From positions 23,759,127-23,823,126 of the forward strand of contig NC_088297.1 in the NCBI RefSeq assembly GCF_032854445.1: a DNA stretch of 64,000 nt. The letters are read 5' to 3'. A program made the translations under genes and the position numbers. Source of the stretch: Liolophura sinensis. Taxonomy: Eukaryota; Mollusca; Polyplacophora; Chitonida; Chitonidae. How positions within the stretch are numbered: the stretch's first letter is position 1; each line of letters begins with the position of its first letter. Shown in pieces: positions 3,396 through 25,085 of this stretch. The notes below the pieces were generated by a model that did no database searches, had not been told where the DNA came from, and saw only the letters and a program-made list of their open reading frames with translations.

Positions 3396-6083
3396 GCACT
3401 GTGGCAATGCAAAAACATTTGGAAAGATCAAGCCTTTTTCCTTTCAAATGTTAAACAATGCAATAACAGATGTGCTGACATTATTTGGGTAACTACGTAC
3501 AGGATTATCGGCTAACAACATCTGACTGGTGTACATTCTCTGAAAATTTTTCACTTCTACAAAATAAAGCATCATGTTTATAGGTGTAGGAAATGTAAAC
3601 ACAGGTAGATGGTGAACTAGTCTTTCTCTTATTCATTATTATAGCTAAAATCCTTAATTGTCAGAATGCTGATTGGTGGCACATCCTACATAAACAGTCC
3701 TGCAGTGAATCCACGTCTATTAAAAAATTTGTATACAAATTGCTGCGTTTAAGAATCTGCTCCAATACAAAAATATTCTACCCCTCTTTGTGAAAGCAGG
3801 CCATACATGGGAGTATCCAGTGTATGTGAATTAGCTTGGAATATATCAAACAACAATATCTACTCTTACATATCTAAACAGTCTGTACAACATTATAGAT
3901 ACATGTCATACACATGATACATGTGTGCTACATTTACTTTGAAGTTGACCAACCAAAAAAAATGAAACAAAACAAGAACGGAGGCTATATGTAACATACA
4001 GTAAATCTGATTTCAAAGCAAATTCAGAATACACGCTAACTGACCGCTACACATGTCCACGAAGCTACATGTAGCTACTGCTGAATTACTGACACTGTGT
4101 GATAAATCAGTATGCACAGAAGTGTGCTCAGTGCAACAGATCTGACTGTGGTTTTCCACAGTTGTCTCCCTTTTCAGCCAAACAGCAAAAGTGAGCCACT
4201 GCTGAATTACTGACACTGTGTGATAAATAAGTATACTCAGAAGTGTGTTCTGTGAAACAGATTTAACCACGGGTCTTCCAAGGTTATCTCCCTTGTCAGT
4301 CAATATGCATTGGTTCAGCTCCTCTCTAAATATAATCACAGATTCATTTACAGAAACTTCAACACATGTACGTGAAGCACTGAACAGACAGATACTAAAC
4401 ATCAGTACATATACAACAGATTGAGCACTTAGAGACTGGTTTATAGCTTGGGTCCACGGCCAGTGAGCATTCAGCAAGGGCAATGATTAACAGTAACTAG
4501 TAAACTTTATGTGCGTATACAGATATACACTTTATGACAAGGCCCATCCGTCCTACTGTGTTCACGTCCAAGAAATCTGGACAGGATTTCATTAAAACTC
4601 CAAATGTCAACCAAAACCATTTATGCCTCTTTGTTATTTGAATATAAGAGGAAACATGTTAGAGTTTAATATCTACATGTATAAACATTATTGTCAGCTG
4701 TACTTTTCATTTGAACGGTCTACACATGTATGTTAATGTTGATATCAAAGCTTCTGGCATACCTGCTGCTGTATTTCTGTTCATGACTAAGTTACTCATC
4801 TTAACTGTTTTCAAGAGCTCTACTAATGGGTGTTTTGAGGTTTGCTCGAAGGCAGGATGAAAAGTAATTATGTTTCAGGAACTTACTTTGTTTCTACAAA
4901 ATGCACTCTGTGGGATGATTTGTATAGTGAAATACAGTATAATGTACAGTGTATGAAACCATACCCTGTAAGAATGATAAAGGGCATTTCCCCATATGCA
5001 GGCAGGTAAACTTCATTGTAACAAACATGCTTCACTGTCACGCTCCTACAGGTGTTCTTTGTGACAAGCAGGATTGTCAATGGAATGTTGTATCCTCTAT
5101 CACATTATCAAAACACATTTTCTTCTCATAGAATAGGATTGAGTCAAATCACGTACATGAAACCAGTGTGCCCATGAGTTTCCTTATGCAGGCATTTTGT
5201 AAATCTGGGTGGTCACAATTCTTGTTTTCTAATACGACCCATCAATGTATATGTAAATGAAACTAGCTTCAGAGACAAGGGGAGCAATATGTTGCTTCAG
5301 ATGAAAACATCAAACCACAGGACTTGTCATAAAATGTCTACTCTGTATAACGACTGAAGTTTACCGATTCAATGGCATGTTAAAAATGTTCATGTTCAAT
5401 AGCAATATATACATACATGATAAAAACTCCCCAGGCGGTTTACTTGTACTGACAACCTCGCATTAAACAGAATCATGTAACAACCGTGTCTCACACAAAT
5501 CTACAGGTTGACAGGAGGCAATGTTCATTAGCTGCTGTGAACACACAGGTAAGTACAGGTAAGTATGGCACAGTCTACTGCGGCTGCCACAGAGCAAACA
5601 CGTATAAATACACACTAACACCATAACACTAACACTATGCTAGACCACATTTGCTTTCTGTATCATATCCAGTAAACGACAGTCTGGCACAGAACTCCGT
5701 TTACAGTATCTACACGTACTTATACAGGGTGTGTACTGCGTAGTCTGAGCATCGGCATATTTTTTACTCGCCCAAAAAGGAAATGCAAAGTGGTCTCATC
5801 AATGACTGAGTTCTGTTCTTCGTTTTATGATTCCAACTTTCTCACTGTGTAACTTGGCTGAATATAACAACGTATATGTACTAAAGTAAATGTCGCACTT
5901 TTAACTGAAGAAGATTTATCAGGTGACAATTCACCTATGTGTTACATATTGGGAACCCTGTATGTGCAGCATCAGGCAGACATCCCCAGTCAATCATAAC
6001 CTTTCATAGCTCGGCCTGTTTCGTTAACAGCCAATCACAGTGTTTCACAGCTCTGCCTTTTTCTGTCTCGGTCAATCATAGTT
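3396..6083. other. intergenic DNA downstream of the PAG1-like gene
   Basis: No gene is supported. It contains a 121-bp direct tandem duplication (about 4,078-4,198 and 4,199-4,310, each starting CTGCTGAATTACTGACACTG). The part nearest 6,084 should contain the 3' UTR of the minus-strand adaptor gene; I did not find a clear poly(A) signal. Confidence 0.5.
4078..4310. repeat. 121-bp direct duplication
   Basis: Two adjacent copies both begin CTGCTGAATTACTGACACTG and differ by scattered substitutions, offset 121 bp. No coding potential is apparent. Confidence 0.75.
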
Positions 6084-9000
6084 TCACAGCTCCCTCTTCT
6101 TCTGCCTCTTTTGTTCTTCCTTCACATCAGTAATGTCCTCGTAACAATGGTTTTGTAACACACGCTTCTTCACGTCGTAAGCGCTCTCCTGGCTGTTCCT
6201 ATTTCTGACATCAGTCACCTCTTCATAATCATGAAGCCGTATTGGGCGCACCTGCCCCACGGCCGCACCATTACCCAGTTCCTGGGGAGGAACAGTTTTG
6301 GCTTCAGTGTTTAGAGCTTTTTTCTTTGTTTCCTCCACAGTTTCGTAGTTAGGATCAAAGTCCGACTCGTTTTCAATCTCGGGCACGTCCTTGACCATTT
6401 GGTAGCCAGGATCGATGGAGAGATCATGATCACTCTCTACAGTTGCGAGAGGTGCCGAGCGGCGGTGCTCCATCACACGGCTCTGCGACGTGGTCAGCCG
6501 TCGCGCCTCACCCACGCCAAGGTTCTCTCCCACAGACCACGATGCTGTCAAAGATAACAGCTGTTTTTCGTCTTTGCCACGAGCCCGTTTTGTAGATTGC
6601 AACACAAGGGCATACCCTTCCTCGTTATGGTCTGGCCCCACTGACTCCTCAATCCTTCGCTTGGCTTCACCCTGGTTGTCTCGCAGACGCAACTGGGGAA
6701 GGCTGTCCACAGGGGGCGGGGCAGGAATCATCTGGTAACTCCCTCCTGTCATACACAAAGTGGTCTACATTACATATAACCAACACCCTACAGAGATTTT
6801 GATTGATTTATTAATTTATTTGATTGGTGTTTTACGCCGTACTCAAGATTATTTCACTTATACTTAACCTCTGAGATAGTTATTAGACAAAACCTAAAAA
6901 ATATGTACCTGATACGACAGATCACAAGAATAATACACAGCAAATACATGCAGTTTTAAATATTGTTCTATCTACAGATGTAGATGTTTATAGTTTCTTA
7001 TCTGGTTGCTATACTACCAAACTGCTTGTCTACAGGGGACACATGAATGCCAAGCTCAATACATGATTACCTGATTACCTAAGTGGGGGTAGTTACACGT
7101 ATGAACAGGACTACCTGTTACCATTAAACTCAGGCACGCACAAGTTCAGATCATAGGCAAGATGTATGCTAAGTTTCATCAAAATCGGCAGGGTAGTTGA
7201 GGGTGAGATACATTGACAAAATGAGAATACATAGAATCACTACCTCATTTCTTCTCAAATTTGGGACACCTGGTCTGCTCATTTTAGCCAATATATATGT
7301 AATTCTAGCAGGAATATCGAGTTTCTTCTTTCTCACATGGTTAGACCATCAAATGAACAACATACTCATATCTTTACTTTCCAAAAGGCTGGTAAAGAAA
7401 TGTAATATTCTACTTTCAACACTACTCATATCTGTCCCAAATTTAGAAGAATTAGGGTATTACCCAAAATCCTAAAATGGAGGTAATTATGAAAATAATT
7501 AACCAATTGCCACTAAACTAAATTTTGTAATTAGGGGAAATTATTTGCTCACAGCACATTAATGATGGAATTTCATCCTTTCTATCTTTATGCCTAATAC
7601 AAGTACACTGTATGCAAAACTTGAGTCCTCACAGTTCTAGTTTAAAATGTACTTTTTTAGGCTATTCTGCATGGTTGCTTGCTTGAGGTTTAACATTGCT
7701 TTCAATATTTCGAATGCATCATTATGGAGCCTTCTTGCGGAGGGTTTGAGTGCTGCCTCACTGGAGTGCCATGCTGAAGACACCAGACACGAGGCCTCAC
7801 CCAGTCACATCATACTGACAAAGGTCCGACCAGTACCAGTTTGCTTTCTATTTATCCTAAAACCTGCGGCAAAGTGGCTAAAAACAAAAAACCCACACAA
7901 TTTGTCTGAGAAGAGTATCAAACAGGCCATTCTGTAAAAATTGATATACTTCCAAATATTCTGACTCATGTGTTGACCTATGTCCTCGCTCTCACCCTGT
8001 ACATGCGGCTAACCTACACAGTTCTCCCTGCCCTCACCTGAGGTGTTGATCTCTGAATACATCTCGCTGTTCCTGTTGGTGCCACCCTCTACATCCAAAG
8101 CTACTGCTCCCTGCGCTGAGAAAGCACCATCCCCAGAACTTCCGTCAACCTGCAACAGTCGTAAAAATCACCAGCCTGCATTAACACAGTTGTGAAACAA
8201 CCACCAGCCTGTAAAATAGTCAAACAACCATCAGCCTGTAAAACAATCATCAAACAACCATCAGCCTGTAAGACAGTCATCACACAACCATCAGCCTGTA
8301 AGACAATCATCATACAACCATCAGCGTGTAAGACAGTCATCATACAACCATCAGCGTGTAAGACAGTCATCACACAACCATCAGCGTGTAAAATAGTCAT
8401 CAAACAATCATCAGCCTGTAAACAGATGCCAAACAACATTTTGCCTGTAAGATAGTCATCAAAGATCTATCAGCCTGTAAGACATCCATCAAAAAACCAT
8501 CAGCCTGTAAAACAGTCATGAAACAACCATTAACCTGTCAGACAGTCAGAAAATAACCATCAACCCATCTGACAAACAGTCATACGTGTACAAATCCTCA
8601 GCCCGTCAAACAGTGAAACAAATCCTCAACATGTCAAACAGTGCCACAAATCCGCAGCCTGTAAAACAGTGGCACAAATCCTCAGCCTGTAAAACAGTGG
8701 CACAAATACTCAGCCTGTAAAACAGTGGCACAAATCCTCAGCCTGTAAAACAGTGCCACAAATCCTCAGCCTGTAAAACAGTGCCACAAATCCTCAGCCT
8801 GTAAAACAGTGCCACAAATCCTCAGTCTCAAACAGTCAGGCAATAATCCTGTGTCAAAAGTTTGCAACCTTTAAAAGACTTACACAAATGTTATCAAATA
8901 TACATGTACATGCATAAAGCCTGCAAAAGTGGAAACTTGTACACAGTTGTGAGACACACGCACGTACATGTATACAGCCAGCAAAGTAGAAACTCGTACA

Positions 9001-12000
9001 CAGTTGTGAGACACACACACGTACATGTATACAGCCAGCAAAAGTAGAAACTGGTACACAGTTGTGAGACACACGCACGTACATGTATACAGCCAGCAAA
9101 AGTAGAAACTGGTACACAGATGTGAGACACACGCACATACATGTATACAGCCAGCAAAAGTAGAAACTGGTACACAGTTGTGAGACTTCGCATGGACATG
9201 TATACAGCCAGCAAAAGTAGAGCTCGTACACAGTTGAGAGACACACGCACAAACATGTATACAGCCAGCAAAAGTAGAAACTCGTACACAGTTGTGAGAC
9301 ACATGCACAAACATGTATACAGCCAGCAAAAGTAGAAACTCGTACACAGTTGTGAGACAAACGCACAAACATGTATACAGCCAGCAAAAGTAGAGCTCGT
9401 ACACAGTTGTGAGACACACGCACGTACATGTATACAGCCAGCAAAAGTAGAAACTGGTACACAGTTGTGAGACACACGCACGTACATGTATACAGCCAGC
9501 AAAAGTAGAGCTCGTACACAGTTGTGAGACACACGCACATACATGTATACAGCCAGCAAAAGTAGAGCTCGTACACAGTTGAGAGACACACGCACGTACA
9601 TGTATACAGCCAGCAAAAGTAGAGCTCGTACACAGTTGAGAGACACACCCACGTACATGTATACAGCCAGCAAAAGTAGAGCTCGTACACAGTTGAGAGA
9701 CACACGCACGTACATGTATACAGCCAGCAAAAGTAGAGCTCGTACACACGCACGTACATGTATACAGCCAGCAAAAGTAGAGCTCGTACACAGTTGAGAG
9801 ACACACGCACGTACATGTATACAGCCAGCAAAGTAGAGCTCGTACACAGTTGTGAGACACACGCACAAACATGTATACAACCAGCAAAAGTAGAAACTCG
9901 TACACAGCTGTGAGACACATGCACGTACATGTATACAGGCTGCCAAAGTAGAAACTGCTACACAGTTGTGAGACACACGCACGTACATGTATACAGCCAG
10001 CAAAAGTAGAAACTGCTACACAGTTGTGAGACACATGCACGTACATGTATACAGCCAGCAAAAGTGGAAACTTGTACACAGTTGTGAGACTTCGCATGGA
10101 CATGTATACAGCCTGCAAAAGTGGAAACTCCTACACAGTTATACCCTTTATAGTATGTAAAACGGGGCCAATTCCATAAAGCCATTTCTGACTTCAAAAT
10201 TTACAACTTCTTCACTACACTTATTTTTGGGTACTGAAAGTTAACATTTTGACACATCTGTCTAAAGATAATACTGATGATGTGGCCAAAATTTTGATTT
10301 TTAAAGCTGAAAAATAAGTTTGAAAATCTAATATCAAATTAGAAGCCCAAGTTTACATACATATATTACCAGGGTACTATATATTACCCTTTCATAATAA
10401 AAGCCTACATACATATATTACCAGGGTACATACCCTTGCATAATAATTCTCCGGGAGATCTTTGAATGTCTCAAAGCCTGGAGCGGCAGCAGCAGCCCCT
10501 CCGCCTGATGCTAACGACACCTGGTTCTGTTGTCGTTGTTGCATGCTGGCTAAACTTTCCCGCGCTGTCACTTCCGTGTATGATGGCTGACGTCGCTTCT
10601 CTGAAACAGGGCGAGTGGCAACATACATGTTACATTGTATACATTTCACTGTGTGTCAGAGGACTAAATGTGAGGTTAGTGTTTTACGCCAAGCCGCAAT
10701 GTGCCTTGGGTATAAACTGGTCATGTTACCCTAATTCATCTCACTTTTAGGATAGTTATTAGTAGTGCTGAGAATTACAATTCTCTATGAGTGTTTCTGA
10801 AAAGTAAAGATATGAATACATTGTTCTTTAGATGGACAAAACAAGTGAAAAACAAGAAGATAAATATTCCTGCTACAATGTCATGTATATTGGCTGACAA
10901 AAGCAGGCTAGGTGTCCCAAGAATGAAAAAAATTAGGGTAGTACATGCAGATGAAATGACGGAAGAAATGTGAAATGCCAGTGAGAAACAACCAGAAACA
11001 TTACATTAATATTATTCCACTGTCCGCTGTGGAAGCTCACCATTGGTCGAAGTTGAGACATCATAACTAGTTTTGAAATTTACCCTTTTTTGACCTGTTC
11101 TGGTGTATTTTAGGTTTTCTGTCTACATTTGTAACTTTTTGATACTAAAAAAAATACCATTTAGATAAATAATTTCAATGGCCTGTAACTATGAAATCTA
11201 TGAAGGCTAGAAATCTGAAACTTGCACCAAATTGTAGTCTAAGACATGCTCTTTTTGCACAGTGAAACCTGATTTAAGCCACGAGCTTAACAATTTTCTC
11301 GCTTAAAGAGTTAAAGTGACACCACCATTTTTTTTTTTCAGAAATAGATCTTTAAGCCTATTGCTATATTAACAGGGGAACAAAAAATAAAAATCAGATG
11401 ACAGTCAGATGACAGAGCATGAAAACTTATTTGCAAATATGATCTTCAATATTTTTTCTCCTTTTTTTTAAAGGAGAAAAGTGCATTTGAAAATATTTTG
11501 TATGGTGGGTATTTAGGACCACCTTTTGGTATTTATCTCCACTGCATAATAATGATTTAACTAAGGATGTGATGCATTTATTTAAATGTAAAATTGCTGT
11601 TTATATCCATACATATGTATTTAATCTGAATTATGATAATATTTATGAATATAATGACAATATAAATATGACCAAAATCCATGTTAAACACTTTTATTAG
11701 CTGTAGAGATCAAATTCTAGTGCAAATATATTAAACATGTGTTACACCTTATTTATAACACAAAGATTACATATACCAAACGTCGGCTCCAAATACCCAC
11801 CATACAAAAATTATTTTTAAGTGTCTTTTTCCCTTTAAAGAAAAATTAAAAAAAAAAAAAAATCACATTTACCACCAACTTTTTGCATTCTTCCATCACA
11901 GCATTATGTAAGTTTTATGTTTTCTCCACCTTTAACATTGAGTCCGATGGCAAGTGGACGGATATGTACTCTGCTGGCCTGTTGGTTTCTTCTATGCTGT

Positions 12001-17522: not shown

Positions 17523-17550
17523 TACAGTACAGCCCACATCAAAACGGAAA
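17523..17550 (+). repeat. left terminal inverted repeat with TA duplication
   Basis: TA at 17,523-17,524, then 26 bp identical to the complement of 25,058-25,083. Confidence 0.9.
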
Positions 17551-18640
17551 TCTAACGCGTTAGACCCGCGGTAGATAGAGGATAGATAGTCGATAGACAC
17601 GCGGTAACAACGCGATATCTCGTGCAGAGAAAAGGGGATATCCCCCCCATTCGGCGGGCTCACGAGTACATCAATCGGTGAAAATGTAGTCCGGCTGTGC
17701 GTAGCCTGTGCTTACAGACTGCAACGCTCCACATGTGGTCCGACGGCGCACGATGAATCCACAAGTCGGGTTAACATGGCATACGGCCTACCGGTATGTC
17801 TGTCATCGGTCATTGCTAGATATTCTTCAGTCTCGCTTTCACTCATATACAGTAAAATTAAAAAGGATGTAAGGAAAGGACCAAAGGATATTGAACACGG
17901 CAGACGTAAACGAGTAATCTGCTTACCGCAGTAAGGATGACCTTGCAAAAGTCCTTGAATTTTTAAAGAGCCAAGTTTTCGGGTTTAAATCTACAAATAC
18001 AGTAGTGTATGAACATATTTACGTCAATTTTTAAATCTTGTCAATAAACCACCGGTTCTGTTTCAAATGAATGAAAATTTAAAATAAAACCTATTTCGGC
18101 AACTCGTATTTATACGTCCATATTATATCGCTCGAAAAAGGCCTAATCTACTTCAACAAATAAAGCAGAATGGACCGCATACGATTTGCAAATCTTTAAA
18201 AATATTGTAAGATGTCGACTGAATTTAATATAAACGCTACCCAATATGCGCTTCATAAATGTATTGAATTAAATTTTAAGGAGAGCGCATACATGTAGGC
18301 CTGTGTGTATTTGTATAGCAATACTTCATCTCGGATCTTGCATGTGAATCACGATTATATGTGTTAATAATGTTTTCTAGTTGTAAATTCATACAGAGGC
18401 AACCTACGAAGTAAAAGAGTGTTATAGAATAAATATACTTAAAGTCATCTTTTTGAAACCTACCGTGTTCAAATACATGCCTTCATTGTTTAGAGTTTTG
18501 AGAATGGCTTCAGTCCGCATTTTGGGCAACACGGCTCAAGTGTCACTCATGAAACCTTTGTATCGTTAATACTAATCCTATGGTATTTTAATCCACTGAC
18601 ACTGAGTAATGGAATACTGTCAGTGTAGTGAGCCTGATTC
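17551..18640. other. left non-coding arm of the transposon
   Basis: No gene recognised. Subterminal 17,570-17,606 holds GTAGATAGAGGATAGATAG then TCGATAGACACGCGG, echoed near the right end, which suggests binding sites for an element protein. 18,594-18,602 and 18,617-18,625 form a short inverted repeat (CACTGACA / TGTCAGTG) just upstream of the TATA box. Confidence 0.5.
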
Positions 18641-18641
18641 C

Positions 18642-18652
18642 TTTATATAAAG
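18642..18652 (+). promoter_or_regulatory. TATA box of the transposase gene
   Basis: TTTATATAAAG lies about 30-40 bp upstream of the transposase ATG (18,683), preceded by a CACTGACA/TGTCAGTG inverted repeat. Spacing implies a very short 5' UTR. Confidence 0.55.
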
Positions 18653-18682
18653 AGTGAAAAAGTTTAATTCACACAATCAAAC

Positions 18683-19966
18683 ATGGAGCCCCATAAGATA
18701 AAACGAATTTCCGAGTTTTATCGTGCGAGAATTGACGACCTGTACGCAGAGAATGTATCACCTCTGCTGATCCGAAAACGTCTCCTGGCTGAAAACAACG
18801 TGAGCATTAGCACACAGGCTATAAAGTTATATATAGCGAGAAGAGAACAGGAAATATCTACTGGAAAACGGCTGTCAGCAGTTAAACCACGGCCAGAGAA
18901 GCGAAAGTTGAACCCTGAGCATCTGGCCTTCATTGACAGATGCATTGAAGCCAACGATGAAGTAACAGCACCGGAGCTTCAGCGTAAACTGAATCAGCAG
19001 TTCGGCGTTGAAGTGTCTCGTTCTACAGTCAAGAGAGCCCGTCAGCAACTTGGATGGACAAGTGCAAGCTCGCGCTATTGTCAGATTGTACGGGATGTGA
19101 ACAAAGAAAAACGTAAGCTGTTCTGTCTAGACGTGATGGCCAATAAGGAACAATTTGACGATGTGATATTCACAGACGAGAGTACTGTAAAAATGCAGTC
19201 GCACGTCAGATTGTCATTCCGGCGCCAAGGAAAGCTACGCCGACTGAAAGGGATACCCAAACACCCGTATCAAGTAAGTTATTTCTTATTATTTGTGCTT
19301 AATACTACCCATCAACTTGCTTCTGTACCTCAAAGTAGTCGTATTCTAAATAGAGTTTCAAGTTAGAAGCACAGACTATATTCCTGATTTGACAATCCAA
19401 TTTTTGCAGGTCCATGTCTGGGCGGGCATATCACGGAGAGGAGCCACACAGATCGCCATCTTTACGGGAAAGTTGAAGAGTGACGGGTACCAAACAATTT
19501 TGGAAAAGTACTTATTGGTAAGCCGTCACATTTACGTAAAAGTGATTATCACTAATTTAAGATCTTGCAATTTTAGTTACCATTTTGTTTACGACTTTAT
19601 TGAAAATGATTTAAATTGTTACAGCCATTCGTCAGAGAGGTGTACCCCGACGGCTACAGACTCTACCAGGATAATGATCCGAAACACACCAGTAAATCAA
19701 CGAAAGCATGGTTAAATGAGAACAACATTAATGTGATGCCGGCTCCCCCTGAATCTCCGGACCTGAATCCCATAGAAATGATGTGGGCTTCGATGAAGTA
19801 CCACATTCGAAAGAATGTAAGACCAACCACCAAAGATCAGCTTACAGAAGGGATTGAGCAATTTTGGAATAACCTGAGTGCCGAAACATGCGAAAGGTAT
19901 ATTAACCACATTTATAAGGTTGTACCCGCTGTGATTGCTTTTGATGGGGCAGCCACAGGCTATTGA
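18683..19966 (+). CDS. Tc1/mariner (DD34E) transposase, three exons
   Basis: Exons 18,683-19,273, 19,410-19,517 and 19,625-19,966 are joined by introns of 136 and 107 bp, both phase 0 with GTAAG donors and CAG acceptors, giving 346 residues, the normal family length. Residues 1-125 are the paired-like helix-turn-helix DNA-binding part, with a basic stretch KPRPEKRK at about 68-75 as a nuclear-localisation candidate. Catalytic residues are D165 (FTDEST), D249 (YQDNDPKHTS) and E284 (LNPIEMMW); 34 residues lie between the last two, hence DD34E. VWAGIS at about 200-205 is also typical. The enzyme cuts at the inverted repeats and inserts at TA. Introns are unusual in this family, and reading through them gives stops, so splicing is needed for activity. 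AATAAA at 20,018 follows the stop. Confidence 0.92.
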
Positions 19967-20017
19967 TAATCTGATGTTTTCAAGTGCATATACGACTACC
20001 ATATACGTATTTCAAAG

Positions 20018-20055
20018 AATAAAGCAAGAATATTTATGAACAAATTTGTTTTATT
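20018..20055. terminator. paired poly(A) signals of the convergent genes
   Basis: AATAAA on the plus strand at 20,018-20,023 serves the transposase; its counterpart on the minus strand (TTTATT as read, 20,050-20,055) serves the BEN gene. The two transcripts should overlap or nearly overlap at their 3' ends. Confidence 0.6.
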
Positions 20056-20134
20056 GTTGTCATATTAACAATATTATATTAATTCATATAACAAAAATTA
20101 TTACAAATATAAACATATAAATTCACTGAAAACA

Positions 20135-22700
20135 CTATAATCTGGTAAACAATCTATCGAGTGGAAGCCACGCGTGACGCAGGCGCTGATTCCATAGGTA
20201 GCGTATAGCAGAGTTTAAGGACGTGGCTACTTTTTTCTCTATGTTTTCTTCTTTGTAGTGCAGCCGCACAACATCGACGATTCTCTTCATCTTCACTTCG
20301 TTTAGGGGTTCTTTGTGTCGGCCACCAAAGTTTATGCCGGAAGCATTCCTGCCGTACAGTTCCCCCAAACTGAAACCGGCAAACAACAAATTCTTGGCAA
20401 GATGGGCAGGCCCATGTGAAACTTTCAAAATCTTTCCTAGCTCTGGCCCGTCAGTGGCAATACCAGGCTCAGGTGATCCGTCTATAATGTCGTCAATCAG
20501 CGTTGCGAGGCGTCGAGGTGTGACTTTGTCACCGTCGAGCTGACAAGGCCTCAGTTGCCAGAACCTGACGTCAGTGAATTCCGGTACAGGTAAGTCCACC
20601 GGCGACGGGCTGGCATCCTTGTCTGTTGGGTCATCGACGGTAGACAGGCTCTGTACAGGCTCTGGTTCGGGTCTCAACCGAGGTTCTGCATCTGTCTGAG
20701 TCCCAAACGACCTGGTTTCGACTAGGGGGCGATTGTTGGGGTAACTTTCACAAGCATGCTTGCATTTAAGACCGTCCACCTGACATAGGAAAAATATATG
20801 TTTTCTATTGTAAAGGAAGTTCGAAAAACTGAACAGAAAGTCTCAAATGAATCTTTTTCGTTAACACGTATTATAAATCAATGAATATACTAAATGAATA
20901 CCTTTGATTCAAGTCTTCGAACGTGGTCGAGCAGTTCGTCAAACTTGGCTAAGAATATATCTAGGCCATGGGAAGGTCCATTGTTGGGGAGAATTGCATG
21001 GTCGCTGGTCGGAGGAGTTACGGAGGAGGGAGGAGGAGTTACAGAGAAGGGAAGAGGATCAGTGGGTGAGCCGGTGGTTAGTTCACACGTATCCATGTTA
21101 AAGAGAGTAGGGCGGTCAGAGGTGGGTAAGTTGACGGAAAAGTCTGAGGATGTTAACAGTGATAGAAAGGGTGACGGTTGGTTATCTGAAGGGAGATCCG
21201 AGGTGGGGGAGAGAACAGGAAACACAGGTGGGGACGAAGAGGCAGGAGTAGGAGTGGGTAAGATAGTGGAGGAAGGTGTGACAGAAGGGGAAGTCAGCCG
21301 CGTTAGAGTAGAAGGAGCGGAGTCAATAGGAGAGGTGAAAGTTTGTGCAGGAGGGTCAGTAGAGGGTGGAGATGAGAGAGTTGTGCTTGGCGATAGGTTA
21401 GTATAGCAACCTGACCGGGTTTTCTCCACCAGACGCTGGACTTTGTCCACCATATCTCCTGTTAAACGGCTAAAGTCAAAGGCATGCGGCTTGGTCTTGG
21501 ATGGCACTGATGGAGATGGCCTGTTCAGTTTGTTAGGATGGAAGACAATTTCCTGTATACAAGAAAAAAAAAAATTAAGCCAATGTTCAGTAAAACATGC
21601 CGGTGTGGTAGTGAAGGTTAGATGTAAGACGTAAAATCACTATTTAAAAGGAGAAACTTGCACAAACATACTAACCTGTGTTGCTTTTCTTTTCAACCGG
21701 TCTTTAATAGTAATTGTTTTCCTGGCAATGTTTCTTTTCAGCGGGCGAGCAGCTGGTAGACGAGTACATGTACCTGAAGAGCGGTAAAAGAGAAATGTTC
21801 ACGTACACAAAGGTTGAACATAAGATAGGAGACGCCTGTCATCCCATACCTGACACAAAAAAAATCGTTTGCATACAAAAACTTGAACATGAGAGTTAAT
21901 GTCGAACTAGCAGGCGTGGCTGTATACAGTGTATATCTGGCAAGTTTCAAGACACTACACACAAGTACTTTGTTGATATATTTATGGAATTCTACAATTT
22001 AATATAAAGTTTGAACTAAATAACTTACCCTCTGTTTGTTTTGAAGCGGTTTTCGTTTTCAAGGATTTCATATACTTCCTCTCAATATCCGTAAGAATTG
22101 TTGGGTCGTCTGTGTAAAATAAATTGGGTATTAAGTCATTGGTGGTATATCGCAATGTAGTATTCGTTTTTTACTCCCGACGGGAATACTTCGTTACAAA
22201 AATAGAGAAAACATTCCAAAAAATACATTTTCAGAATTTCGGTTAATATACGTGAACAATATTTAAGGTCTCCGGAGACAAATACCCACCAGATAATCCC
22301 AGTATTGTTGCCAACAGAAGTTTATTTTCCCAAGGCGCTTTCACTTCCAAATTCACTGCTAATGGGTATTCTGATACCAGGTCTTTCGTCTTGGTCTGCA
22401 AAGTCTTGCCGTCACAAGCAAACTTTATAAAAGCGTACTTAGGAACTGGAAAGAAAGGTTTACGTACGTGTAAAGGATACATGGTCATCACAATGGAAAG
22501 CAAAACTAAGAAAGTGACAAATATCAATATATGCAGTAAAATTATGGATTAATGGATAAACACATGCAGTTCTTGTGCGAGTGAATAAATAACTAGAACA
22601 GATGTGCTTACATTATTTCAATAAACGATGTTAACGTCGGAACATGCCTTTTAAAGCCAAAACACATATGCTTACCTTTAAGTTCGTTACGGCGAGACAT
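20135..22700 (-). CDS. BEN-domain protein (BEND5-like layout), six exons, carried by the transposon
   Basis: Exons on the minus strand: 22700-22676, 22445-22290, 22109-22029, 21752-21676, 21552-20902 and 20779-20135. All have GT/AG borders and compatible phases and sum to 1,635 nt, 544 residues. Residues 10-60 start PKYAFIKFACDG, like the N-terminal small domain of BEND5. Residues 62-113 are very basic (candidate nuclear-localisation signal). Residues 125-300 are low-complexity Ser/Thr/Pro. Residues about 305-340 form a likely short coiled coil (LAKFDELLDHVRRLESK). A BEN domain lies at about 443-508 (HLAKNLLFAGFSLGELYGRN ... LNEVKMKRIVDVVRLHY). BEN domains bind DNA or chromatin proteins. Its position between the inverted repeats and tail-to-tail with the transposase suggests a role in element regulation, end binding or target choice; that is inference. 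A possible TATA element (TATAAAAA, minus strand) is at 22,884-22,891. Confidence 0.8.
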
Positions 22701-22883
22701 TTTCAGTCCTGGATGGATACTGCTAAGACGAACTAGAGGGTAAAGGGGATTTCGTCAAAGTGCACGATGTCAAAAAACTGTCCTCGGTATGTAGCTAAAT
22801 CCGCAAAACGTAGTGGTGTAAGGCAGGGTATGAGTCAAGGCAAGAGCAAGAGAAATTATGATGTCTTCTTCTTTGGACTGCAC

Positions 22884-22891
22884 TTTTTATA
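22884..22891 (-). promoter_or_regulatory. possible TATA box of the BEN gene
   Basis: TATAAAAA on the minus strand about 185 bp upstream of the ATG. No independent support. Confidence 0.35.
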
Positions 22892-22900
22892 TTATTCCTC

Positions 22901-23499
22901 TTGAAAGACGCTGTTGTTTTGCTTTAAGATCCAGGAGTCCCACAGTGACTTGGTGTACATCCAACTGTGCTCAATTAGCCCGGATAATTAGCCACGCTTG
23001 ATCATTTGACTTAGCTTTTGTAAACGGAATCGTTGTTATCAAATTGTTGCACCCTCCCCCATCTCACCCTCCCCCATCTCACCCACCACAAATGAAGTAC
23101 TTGTATTTTAAAGGCAAATCATTAAATCGCTGACAAACATATTGCACTATACACAGAAATTTGGTGAATATGTATACCGCAGCTTTGGAAGACTTACACG
23201 TTTATGAAACAGAAGGCTAGTTTAAACTACAGATAACAGGTGTAAAGGTTTGCCTAATGCGGACAAATTGATTCCAGAAGATGGCAAAGCATATACTATA
23301 AGTCGTGTTGCCAGAAAAGATCGTTTAACTATTTCCATTTCAATGGAAATAGTTATGAACACGAAATATATCCGGCATTTGGGGGAGAAACGACACTGGA
23401 GTGGTGTTTTCGTTTTTACCTCGGTGCAAATAAAGAGAGTTTTATTGTAGGCCTACAGATATTTGGAAATCAAAAGGAAAAAACATCGGAGAATGCACA
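22901..23499. other. right non-coding arm of the transposon, first part
   Basis: Contains a tandem CACCCTCCCCCATCT pair at about 23,048 and an imperfect hairpin around 23,328-23,352 (TTTCCATTTCAATGGAAA). No gene recognised. Confidence 0.45.
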
Positions 23500-24820
23500 T
23501 AGACCTAAGCCGTTGTGAAATCTATTAAATCTATCTTGCATGCACATGTTTTGCATTCACCAACATGACGTAAAGATGTAGTAATGAGAAAATTCTGGAA
23601 TAATAGTCTTGTGTTTTGAGTACCGATAATAAGGGATAATCCATCTAAATAAGGCCTCCGCTCCATGCAGTAATCCACAGCATCGCCAGTAATCCTCCAG
23701 TTTACAGGAACACGGCATGATGTCGTCTCCGAACTCAAGAATATACTTACCACCAACGAATCAGAAAATATATACAAACATTTCATATCCACAAAACCTT
23801 TACTAAAAATGTACAACAGTTACCAAGACAAACGTTTGGAATGCATCAGGCTAACTTTAACGGCCATTATTCACCTTTGTCTTTGGCGATCCTTAAAATG
23901 CCAAAAGTTTTGATGAATATTGCATTTATTAATTACGTGAAACTGTAAAGCACAGATTATTAGTTTGGTAATCACAAAGATGGTTCGGATATTTTCCTAT
24001 TTGGAAGAGTTCTGAACTTCAAACGCATCCCCTATATATATATATATATATAACAGAATGGGTACGGAAAGGCCGTTAATCCACCGGCGATAGCTGATAT
24101 CTATAAATTGTTATTCAATGTTATTTTTATCGTCAATTCGGATCAAAGAGTAATTTACCGTATAGATTTTTGGAATGAGAAAACCAACAGAAATGTTCAA
24201 AGAGAATTTCTTTATAAGACGTTGTGAAAGTTATTAAAACAATCTTGTATGTACATGTTTTGCGTTCACCAACATACAAGTAATGGGTATACAGTGTAGT
24301 AATAAGAAAAAATCTGAAATAAAGTCTTGTTTTGAGTACTGATAGTAAGATATAATCCGTCTAAATAAGGCCTCCGCTCCATGCAGTAATCCACAGCATC
24401 GCCAGTAATCCTCCAGTTTACAGGAACACGGCATGATGTCGTCTTCGAACTCAAGAATATACTTACCACCTACAAATCAGAAAATATATACAAGCATTTC
24501 ATATCCACAAAACCTTTACTAAAAATGTACAACAGTTACCGAGACAAACGTTTGGAATGCATCAGGCTAACTTTAACGGCCATTATTCACCTTTGTCTTT
24601 GGCGATCCTTAAAATGCCAAAAGTTTTGATGAATATTGCATTTATTAATTACGTGAAACTGTAAAGCACAGATTATTAGTTTGGTAATCACAAAGATGGT
24701 TCGGATATTTTCCTATTTAGAAGAGTTCTGAACTTTAAACGCATTCCCTATATATATATATATATACAGTATATATATATAACATATTGGGTACGGAAAG
24801 GCCGTTAATCCACCGGCGAT
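23500..24820. repeat. 590-bp direct duplication inside the transposon
   Basis: Copy A (about 23,500-24,090) and copy B (about 24,217-24,820) are near-identical over most of their length. For example AAGGCCTCCGCTCCATGCAG starts at 23,651 and 24,367. Each ends in a (TA)n tract followed by GGGTACGGAAAGGCCGTTAA. About 125 bp separate them. Open frames in the two copies are not conserved in phase, so it is probably non-coding. Confidence 0.85.
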
Positions 24821-24824
24821 AGAT

Positions 24825-25057
24825 CGGCGATAGACCTGCGATAGACCTGTCGATAGATAGCATGCTAGGCTTACACGGTGTGCTCCCGGGACTATGTTGG
24901 CGTCTCGGACCGCCCCTAACCTCCCCACCCCATGACGGTAAACAGTCCCGGTGATTAGGCTGGCGGGGGTGGGGGGAAAAACGCGATAACAACGCGAGAG
25001 AAAGCCGAGAGAGAGTCGAGAGACACCCGATAGATACGCGAAAGAAAACCCGATAAC
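24825..25057. promoter_or_regulatory. right subterminal region with GATAGA motifs
   Basis: CGATAGATCGGCGATAGACC, then GCGATAGACC and TCGATAGATAG, and further out CCGATAGATACGCG beside the inverted repeat. The left end has the same GATAGA/GATAGT words and both have CGCGRTAACAACGCG. I infer protein-binding sites near both ends. Confidence 0.5.
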
Positions 25058-25085
25058 TTTCCGTTTTGATGTGGGCTGTACTGTA
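25058..25085 (-). repeat. right terminal inverted repeat with TA duplication
   Basis: 26 bp complementary to 17,525-17,550, followed by TA at 25,084-25,085. Confidence 0.9.

Follow-up and report, generated by a model that had tools for sequence, protein, structure and literature searches.

Can a Tc1/mariner-type transposon carry, and make use of, a second protein? The question is raised by a locus in the stretch of DNA analysed here (the window, 64,000 nucleotides), which lies on scaffold C3 of the genome of the chiton Liolophura sinensis, a mollusc. Tc1/mariner elements usually measure 1-2 kb and are the textbook one-protein transposons, and we know of no two-protein design with a BEN-domain partner in elements of this type in animals. 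The analysis confirmed a two-gene Tc1/mariner element at window positions 17525-25083. It has matching ends, TA borders and two open genes, which occur together in every close copy found, and the tail-to-tail design of its genes recurs in a second family, called B here, the family of the window element being called A. We read the window element as an intact-looking copy of an oversized two-gene DD34E lineage with at least two families in the chiton, whose BEN protein would act as a partner that binds subterminal arrays, and we put the probability of this reading at about 0.72.

The two terminal inverted repeats of the window element are identical over 26 of 26 bp, with the sequence CAGTACAGCCCACATCAAAACGGAAA, and TA flanks both ends. 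An earlier note made from the letters alone (below, the original prediction) had claimed just this, perfect 26-bp inverted ends starting with CAGT between TA borders. The complete DD34E transposase that it described was likewise recovered, as 346 stop-free residues encoded by three exons on the plus strand, with 34 residues between the second D and the E (counted by eye on the translations, and the same in family B). Of the complete BEN protein, the open gene in tail-to-tail orientation stood and the length of 544 residues did not: the gene model, at 22700-20135 on the minus strand with predicted splicing, has six exons and 551 stop-free residues, and all five of its introns are GT..AG. The parts of the element are the following.

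17523..17524, no strand: left TA target-site duplication
17525..25083, no strand: whole family A element, 7,559 bp, defined by ends, borders and copies
17525..17550, plus strand: left terminal inverted repeat, 26 bp
18683..19273, plus strand: transposase exon 1, with a helix-turn-helix (HTH) and the first catalytic D
19410..19517, plus strand: transposase exon 2, from the reading frame
19625..19966, plus strand: transposase exon 3, with the second D and the E, spacing 34
20135..20779, minus strand: BEN gene exon 6, which encodes the BEN domain, from the gene model and domain matches
20902..21552, minus strand: BEN gene exon 5, a low-complexity linker, coiled-coil-like towards its end (by eye)
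21676..21773, minus strand: BEN gene exon 4, gene model
22029..22109, minus strand: BEN gene exon 3, gene model
22290..22445, minus strand: BEN gene exon 2, N-terminal domain, gene model
22676..22700, minus strand: BEN gene exon 1, with the start, gene model
25058..25083, minus strand: right terminal inverted repeat, 26 bp
25084..25085, no strand: right TA target-site duplication

The window transposase scored 69.6 bits with PF13358 DDE_3 (cut-off 28.6) and 121.7 bits with the NCBIfam IS630 model NF033545 (cut-off 100), and HTH_32, of the HTH family, also exceeded its Pfam cut-off. With DDE_3 and IS630 above their curated cut-offs, a TA duplication and terminal inverted repeats, the element has the characters of the IS630-Tc1-mariner group. 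When the transposase was searched against the PDB, SB100X (Sleeping Beauty) ranked first at 4.6e-22, far ahead of SETMAR (0.035) and Mos1 (0.13), and a profile built from the A and B transposases found SB100X at 8.4e-29. When viral contigs were scanned with the alignment of the transposases, there were 162 pattern matches, none of which was confirmed as a relative. The transposase would be expected to bind and cut the terminal inverted repeats and to insert the element at TA by a cut-and-paste mechanism.

Whether the two genes belong to one unit was addressed through other copies in the genome (609,464,459 bases in 632 contigs). Searches with the two family A ends gave 13 and 21 matches. The loci read, L009-L025, lie around most of these, and L026 around a transposase match; the end matches at C1:52.20 and C12:14.53, 14.57 and 14.62 Mb lie outside them. 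In L009-L026 and the window, TA precedes 24 of 24 ends found with up to six mismatches, and it stands on both sides of the elements in the window and L009, among others. As TA was no part of the search pattern, chance is excluded as the origin of these ends. BEN exon 6 had 14 genome matches at E<=0.001, confined to six loci, and these are the same six that hold a transposase match of at least 71% identity; more distant copies may be missing from this set, as scoring in the transposase search extended to 117 of 1443 candidates. By blastn, both genes are colinear with the window in L010 (91-95% identity), L011 (mostly 87-91%), L012 (88-96%), L023 (81-84%) and L026 (92.5%), the last being a fragment without ends. 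The family A copies other than the window element carry stop codons, frame breaks or missing stretches, and a transposase without BEN was seen at none of the six loci with a close transposase.

These copies dispose of the notion that unrelated transposon ends flank, by coincidence, a BEN gene of the host and an independent transposase. Nested transposon insertions are common, and nothing beyond their general frequency speaks for it; six family A loci with both genes colinear and two near-identical 10.8-kb B copies with matching ends (see below) already refute it, so that its probability is close to nil. The variant in which stray ends have trapped a BEN gene of the host was rejected too, since exon 6 has matches only in element loci and the genes keep their order in the copies. 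The single mobile unit with a BEN partner proposed in the original prediction is supported instead: all six loci with a close transposase hold BEN, family B repeats the layout, the same genome contains six A loci with both genes and two near-identical B copies at TA sites, and no intact family A element was seen whose inverted repeats enclose the transposase only.

Family A has also left shorter relatives. L009 is a 2.8-kb internal-deletion derivative with ends 95-99% identical to those of the window. Older derivatives, about 1.6-3.4 kb long and with a similarity of 65-86% in the ends, are L014-L016, L018 and L019; L013 partners L014. None of L009, L013-L016, L018 and L019 gave a transposase protein match. 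In the old deletion derivatives L013 and L014, about 190 bp of DNA resembling transposase intron 2/exon 3 are left, with no BEN match. The left ends of L013 (C1:82443277) and L014 (C1:82450934) lie 7,657 bp apart and eight flank letters are identical, which suggests a tandem duplication of the locus. The smallest set of ends seen belongs to a 153-bp miniature element (L020, 1035-1187), in which about 67 bp remain of either A end, with TA on both sides. In the non-coding right part of the window element there is, in addition, a tandem duplication with a period of about 716 bp, and several family A copies align to both of its units.

23506..24093, no strand: internal non-coding tandem duplication, copy 1
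24215..24822, no strand: internal duplication, copy 2, 97% identical over the best 300 bp

Family B came to light through the BEN domain. A Pfam search of the genome for BEN returned 13 places, nine of them above the cut-off, and five of these nine sit in the elements described here; the places on C2 and C8 adjoin distant transposase matches. The B element on C8 is 10,816 bp long and has the ends CAGTACAACAAAAAAGTGACCAC. A 23-bp query for its terminal repeat matched both ends of two B copies with zero mismatches, and TA precedes all six B ends found and stands on both sides of the C8 and C2 copies. The B transposase is also DD34E and is 46% identical to that of family A over 274 residues; the intron before VHVWAG is common to both, and B has further introns (by eye). 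The C8 and C2 copies, on two scaffolds, are 99.945% identical over 10,825 aligned columns in unrelated flanks with TA at all four borders. Copies so alike in unrelated, TA-bordered flanks show that the whole two-gene unit of family B moved recently. An assembly duplication was considered for this pair and rejected, as the identity stops within 5 bp of the inverted repeats and the flanks differ.

A search for the B transposase, which scored 135 of 1443 candidates, gave nine loci with at least 78% identity (in Mb, C8:50.40, C2:27.38, C6:1.87, C4:17.79, C4:10.41, C4:9.87, C6:44.20, C4:1.10 and C8:50.34). BEN lies near the transposase at eight of them and is convergent with it in all eight, within 3 kb in seven and within 6 kb at C4:1.10. 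At the ninth, L050, BEN is absent through an internal deletion of element positions 4131-9214; the left end of this copy falls outside the sequence read. At C4:1077377, 1084803 and 1092225, three B BEN matches about 7.4 kb apart resemble a tandem array; about 6 kb past the third lies a B transposase in convergent orientation.

One companion gene is visible in the window element, and BEN is the only Pfam family that matched parts of its protein. The whole protein gave no Pfam match, and a PDB search with its single sequence returned unrelated weak matches only. Taken alone, the window protein is a weak basis for the name BEN, which is supported by the family B domain (24.9 and 27.2 bits, over the PF10523 cut-off of 23.2) and by a profile that weakly matched BANP. 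The A and B BEN sequences are 26-27% identical (window and four B sequences aligned). When a profile of one A and four B sequences was compared with the PDB, three distinct sequences appeared at E<=10, all of them the BEN domain of BANP, with E values of 0.068-0.12. In the BANP-DNA structure, Arg316 and Ser313 contact bases, according to the parts of that report available to us (PMC11472053). By our reading of the alignments, the putative counterpart of Arg316 is Arg in the window copy, in B on C8 and in seven of seven other readable B copies, and that of Ser313 is Ser in the window and in four of four other readable A copies and Cys in B. BEN domains are characterised by two strands at the N-terminus followed in the description by five helices. 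A low-confidence model of window exon 6 has two 2-residue strands, helices of 12, 9, 12, 14 and 20 residues, and two more helices of 4 residues each; that of family B, likewise of low confidence, has a long helix at residues 33-75, preceding the BEN domain, as a candidate coiled coil.

Two BEN places elsewhere in the genome are recorded here as side observations. The best BEN domain of the genome (L029, 1501-1713, minus strand; 38.3 bits) is interrupted by a stop and has a relative at C3:6.90 Mb. It adjoins an RNase H-like frame (by eye), and about 1 kb away, at 225-464 on the plus strand, lies a fragment that we take to be PIF/Harbinger transposase-like. A match just above the cut-off (L037, 1363-1644, plus strand, C9:19265605; 24.7 bits) has a frame very close to BANP by eye; it is probably the chiton's own BANP gene, whose product could be a host protein that reads the same CGCG sites.

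In five family A pairs, the transposase had a ratio of nonsynonymous to synonymous substitution (dN/dS) of 0.25-0.41 relative to the window copy, and the BEN protein one of 0.42-0.58. For the BEN exon, the two deepest A pairs gave 0.26 and 0.28, compared with 0.80-1.80 in shifted frames, and an excess of third-position changes (35 of 61 and 42 of 68). Between the B copies on C8 and C2 there were zero changes in this exon. Selection on the BEN domain is thus supported by the deep pairs and not by all pairs. The same numbers bear on the suggestion that the BEN gene was captured from the host and travels as a useless passenger of the element, which we consider improbable: it would fit the low constraint on BEN in some A pairs, the ratios of 0.56-0.88 in the linker exon and the want of a clear frame signal in exons 2-4, but not the retention of the gene pair across two families with 46% identical transposases, the ratios and third-position excess of the deepest A pairs, or the finding that the BEN exon has no match in the genome outside element loci at E<=0.001.

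If the BEN protein is a partner of the transposase, its binding sites may lie directly inside the inverted repeats, where the window element has phased arrays.

17551..17622, plus strand: left subterminal array, about six 11-bp-phased CG-rich units resembling CGCGGTAGA (borders by eye)
24817..24857, plus strand: second array on the right, CGATAGA four times at intervals of 11-12 bp, at element positions 7293, 7304, 7315 and 7327
24982..25057, plus strand: right subterminal array, 11-bp-phased units resembling CGCGATAAC/CGCGAGAGA (borders by eye)

Over the 100 bp inside each A inverted repeat, self-identity at a lag of 11 was 0.45 on the left and 0.60 on the right, and none of 2000 single-base shuffles reached such values. 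Among 22 A ends, the 11-bp periodicity had p<0.01 in 14 and p of 0.011-0.019 in three; these ends are not independent, because the copies are related. Within the A element, seven of ten CGCG and six of seven TCTATCG fall in the terminal 330+330 bp. In family B, the palindrome CACGCGTG is terminal in six of six cases and adjoins the terminal repeats, and ACACGCGTGT occurs six times, always in the terminal 330+330 bp, with no occurrence in the 56,437 bp of the window outside the A element. The A arrays are CpG-rich and are retained in non-coding derivatives such as L009. By eye, the arrays at 17551-17622 and 24982-25057 seem to have the same orientation (plus strand) despite the inverted terminal repeats between which they stand.

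We infer from these features that the BEN protein would bind the arrays. It might oligomerise through its candidate coiled coil and, as a DNA-binding partner, attach to the CG-rich units beside each inverted repeat much as BANP does to CGCG; both steps are less certain than the cutting by the transposase. A protein coating both arrays could assist the transposase in locating the two ends of the element, 7.6 or 10.8 kb apart, and in bringing them together, or could mark them. Since CpG methylation blocks BANP binding, the mobility of the element could, speculatively, depend on its own methylation state. The stronger form, that this giant animal Tc1/mariner lineage needs a BANP-like partner reading phased unmethylated CGCG and that CpG methylation of the ends gates transposition, we regard as doubtful, with the odds against it. 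If it were true, BEN regulators and transposon partners would share a history, as HARBI1 and NAIF1 do with Harbinger.

The main rival gives the same protein another task. The BEN protein could be an element-encoded regulator that acts at CG-rich repeats, against methylation or as a gene switch, and not as a part of the cutting complex, comparable to VANC, the anti-silencing proteins of plant Mutator-like elements. The CpG-rich subterminal arrays fit such a role, as does the start of the B transposase, which seems to lie within about 400 bp of the left end (by eye), and BANP and BEND3 are CpG-island binders that methylation repels, in the available portions of the source (PMC11472053). On the other hand, the arrays stand directly beside the inverted repeats at both ends, about 2.3 kb separate the right array of A from the closest start codon in the gene models, and non-coding derivatives such as L009 retain the arrays. 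A purely regulatory or anti-silencing protein is a possibility to be taken seriously, though a minority one, and this role could hold together with that of a partner.

Several results weigh against the BEN protein as a partner at the arrays. Five of the 22 A ends show no 11-bp periodicity (p>0.1), the period is weak in B (p of 0.015-0.18 at four ends), and most of the array may be dispensable in cis, because the 153-bp miniature element keeps so little of each end. The window BEN domain alone scored 13.3-15.7 bits, under the PF10523 cut-off; the BANP match is weak (E 0.07-0.12) and comes from a profile made mostly of family B; and the Arg316 counterpart, kept in L010 and L026, is changed in L011 and L023, two of four other readable A copies. 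Both AlphaFold models are of low confidence (mean pLDDT 44.1 and 55.4), so that the BEN assignment rests on sequence. As to selection, the BEN exon ratios of the three shallow A pairs (0.48-0.64) overlap those of shifted frames (0.42-1.02), exons 2-4 gave 0.36, 1.03, 0.33 and 0.61 in four A pairs with no clear frame signal, and the B BEN exon gave 0.58-1.91 in six shallow pairs and 0.50 and 0.53 in the two deepest. Exons of the A copies are no less diverged than introns, which is expected if most changes postdate insertion. In the search that scored 135 of 1443 transposase candidates, no match lay close to at least nine B-like BEN places, of which three (L051-L053) were read in pieces (C4:1.077, 1.085, 1.144 and 1.172, C1:83.02, C2:10.10, C8:6.58, C11:12.57 and C10:21.12 Mb). 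Finally, no empty site was found in a search that covered four of seven joined-flank insertions (L018, L019 and L020 left out) and skips very common words: the flanks of the window element, L009, B on C8 and B on C2 (cut by six letters) were found whole only in place, and repeat matches touched the left flank of L009 and in one case adjoined the C2 flank, none crossing an insertion junction.

Read as a lineage with a BEN partner, the two divergent families and their recent 10.8-kb moves would mean that the two-protein strategy of Harbinger is open to the Tc1/mariner superfamily as well. The elements would offer a natural setting for studying the tasks of BEN domains beyond the regulation of host genes; they may be a source from which hosts gain new BEN genes, and they would connect CpG methylation with transposition in a way that can be tested. 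As five of the nine BEN domains above the cut-off in this genome sit in these elements, counts of BEN genes in invertebrates may include transposon genes.

Among known systems, Sleeping Beauty and other DD34E Tc1-like elements share with the chiton elements the Pfam and NCBIfam transposase class, the DD34E triad, the TA target and ends starting with CAGT; they differ in that the chiton elements are 7.6 and 10.8 kb long and have transposase introns, a second gene and long subterminal arrays. PIF/Harbinger elements likewise pair a transposase with a separate DNA-binding partner, with another transposase superfamily and another partner domain. The Harbinger target is 3 bp, and the TA target and DDE_3/IS630 transposase of the window element place it outside that group. 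According to the accessible text, transposition of PIF/Harbinger requires the Myb-like partner, which interacts with the transposase and recognises a motif of 9 bp in the subterminal regions (PMC9710019).

The nearest examples of BEN domains come from proteins of other kinds. For both BANP and BEND3 the recognition site is CGCG. One such site is shared by two BEN domains of BANP, which has a coiled coil and whose binding becomes sensitive to methylation through oligomerisation, as reported in the sections available (PMC11472053). Like the chiton protein, BANP and BEND3 combine a BEN domain with CGCG-type sites, BANP is the only solved relative matched, and the candidate Arg316 counterpart is present in the window copy and B; they are host regulators, however, not transposon genes, and the overall similarity is weak. 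In the Tn3 transposase TnpA, DBD1 resembles BEN in fold and DNA-binding surface and binds the inverted repeat, so far as the source could be seen, a precedent for the use of a BEN-like fold at the ends of transposons (PMC9579193); that system is bacterial, and the BEN-like domain is inside the transposase itself. Bracovirus Ben genes have the BEN domain in the last exon and are part of mobile DNA that integrates into foreign genomes, here viral circles, with another N-terminal domain (PHA02737) and with no transposase partner mentioned in the accessible part of the paper (PMC4574769).

Among the papers listed in searches of open-licence PubMed Central, judged by titles and the openings of abstracts and with Repbase outside the search, none reported a BEN protein together with a Tc1/mariner element, and a search there for two-ORF mariner elements (ORF, open reading frame) found no paper. 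The original prediction that Tc1/mariner elements normally have a single gene was too strong, since ciliate elements have several. In the parts of these sources available, Oxytricha TBE elements have three ORFs under purifying selection, one of them oppositely oriented (PMC4724952), and Paramecium Tc1/mariner elements have up to four, a tyrosine recombinase included (PMC5405496). The TBE, Paramecium and Euplotes Tec elements thus resemble the window element in uniting a Tc1/mariner transposase with extra genes. Their extra genes, as described there, encode a 22 kD protein of unknown function, a zinc-finger/kinase protein, an ORF2 product of unknown function or a tyrosine recombinase, not BEN proteins, and their hosts are not animals; companions of the TBE 22 kD and 57 kD (zinc finger, kinase) types were not seen in the window element. 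Multi-gene Tc1/mariner elements are therefore known from ciliates, and the unusual feature of the chiton elements is probably the separate BEN protein, with its predicted role as a partner of the transposase.

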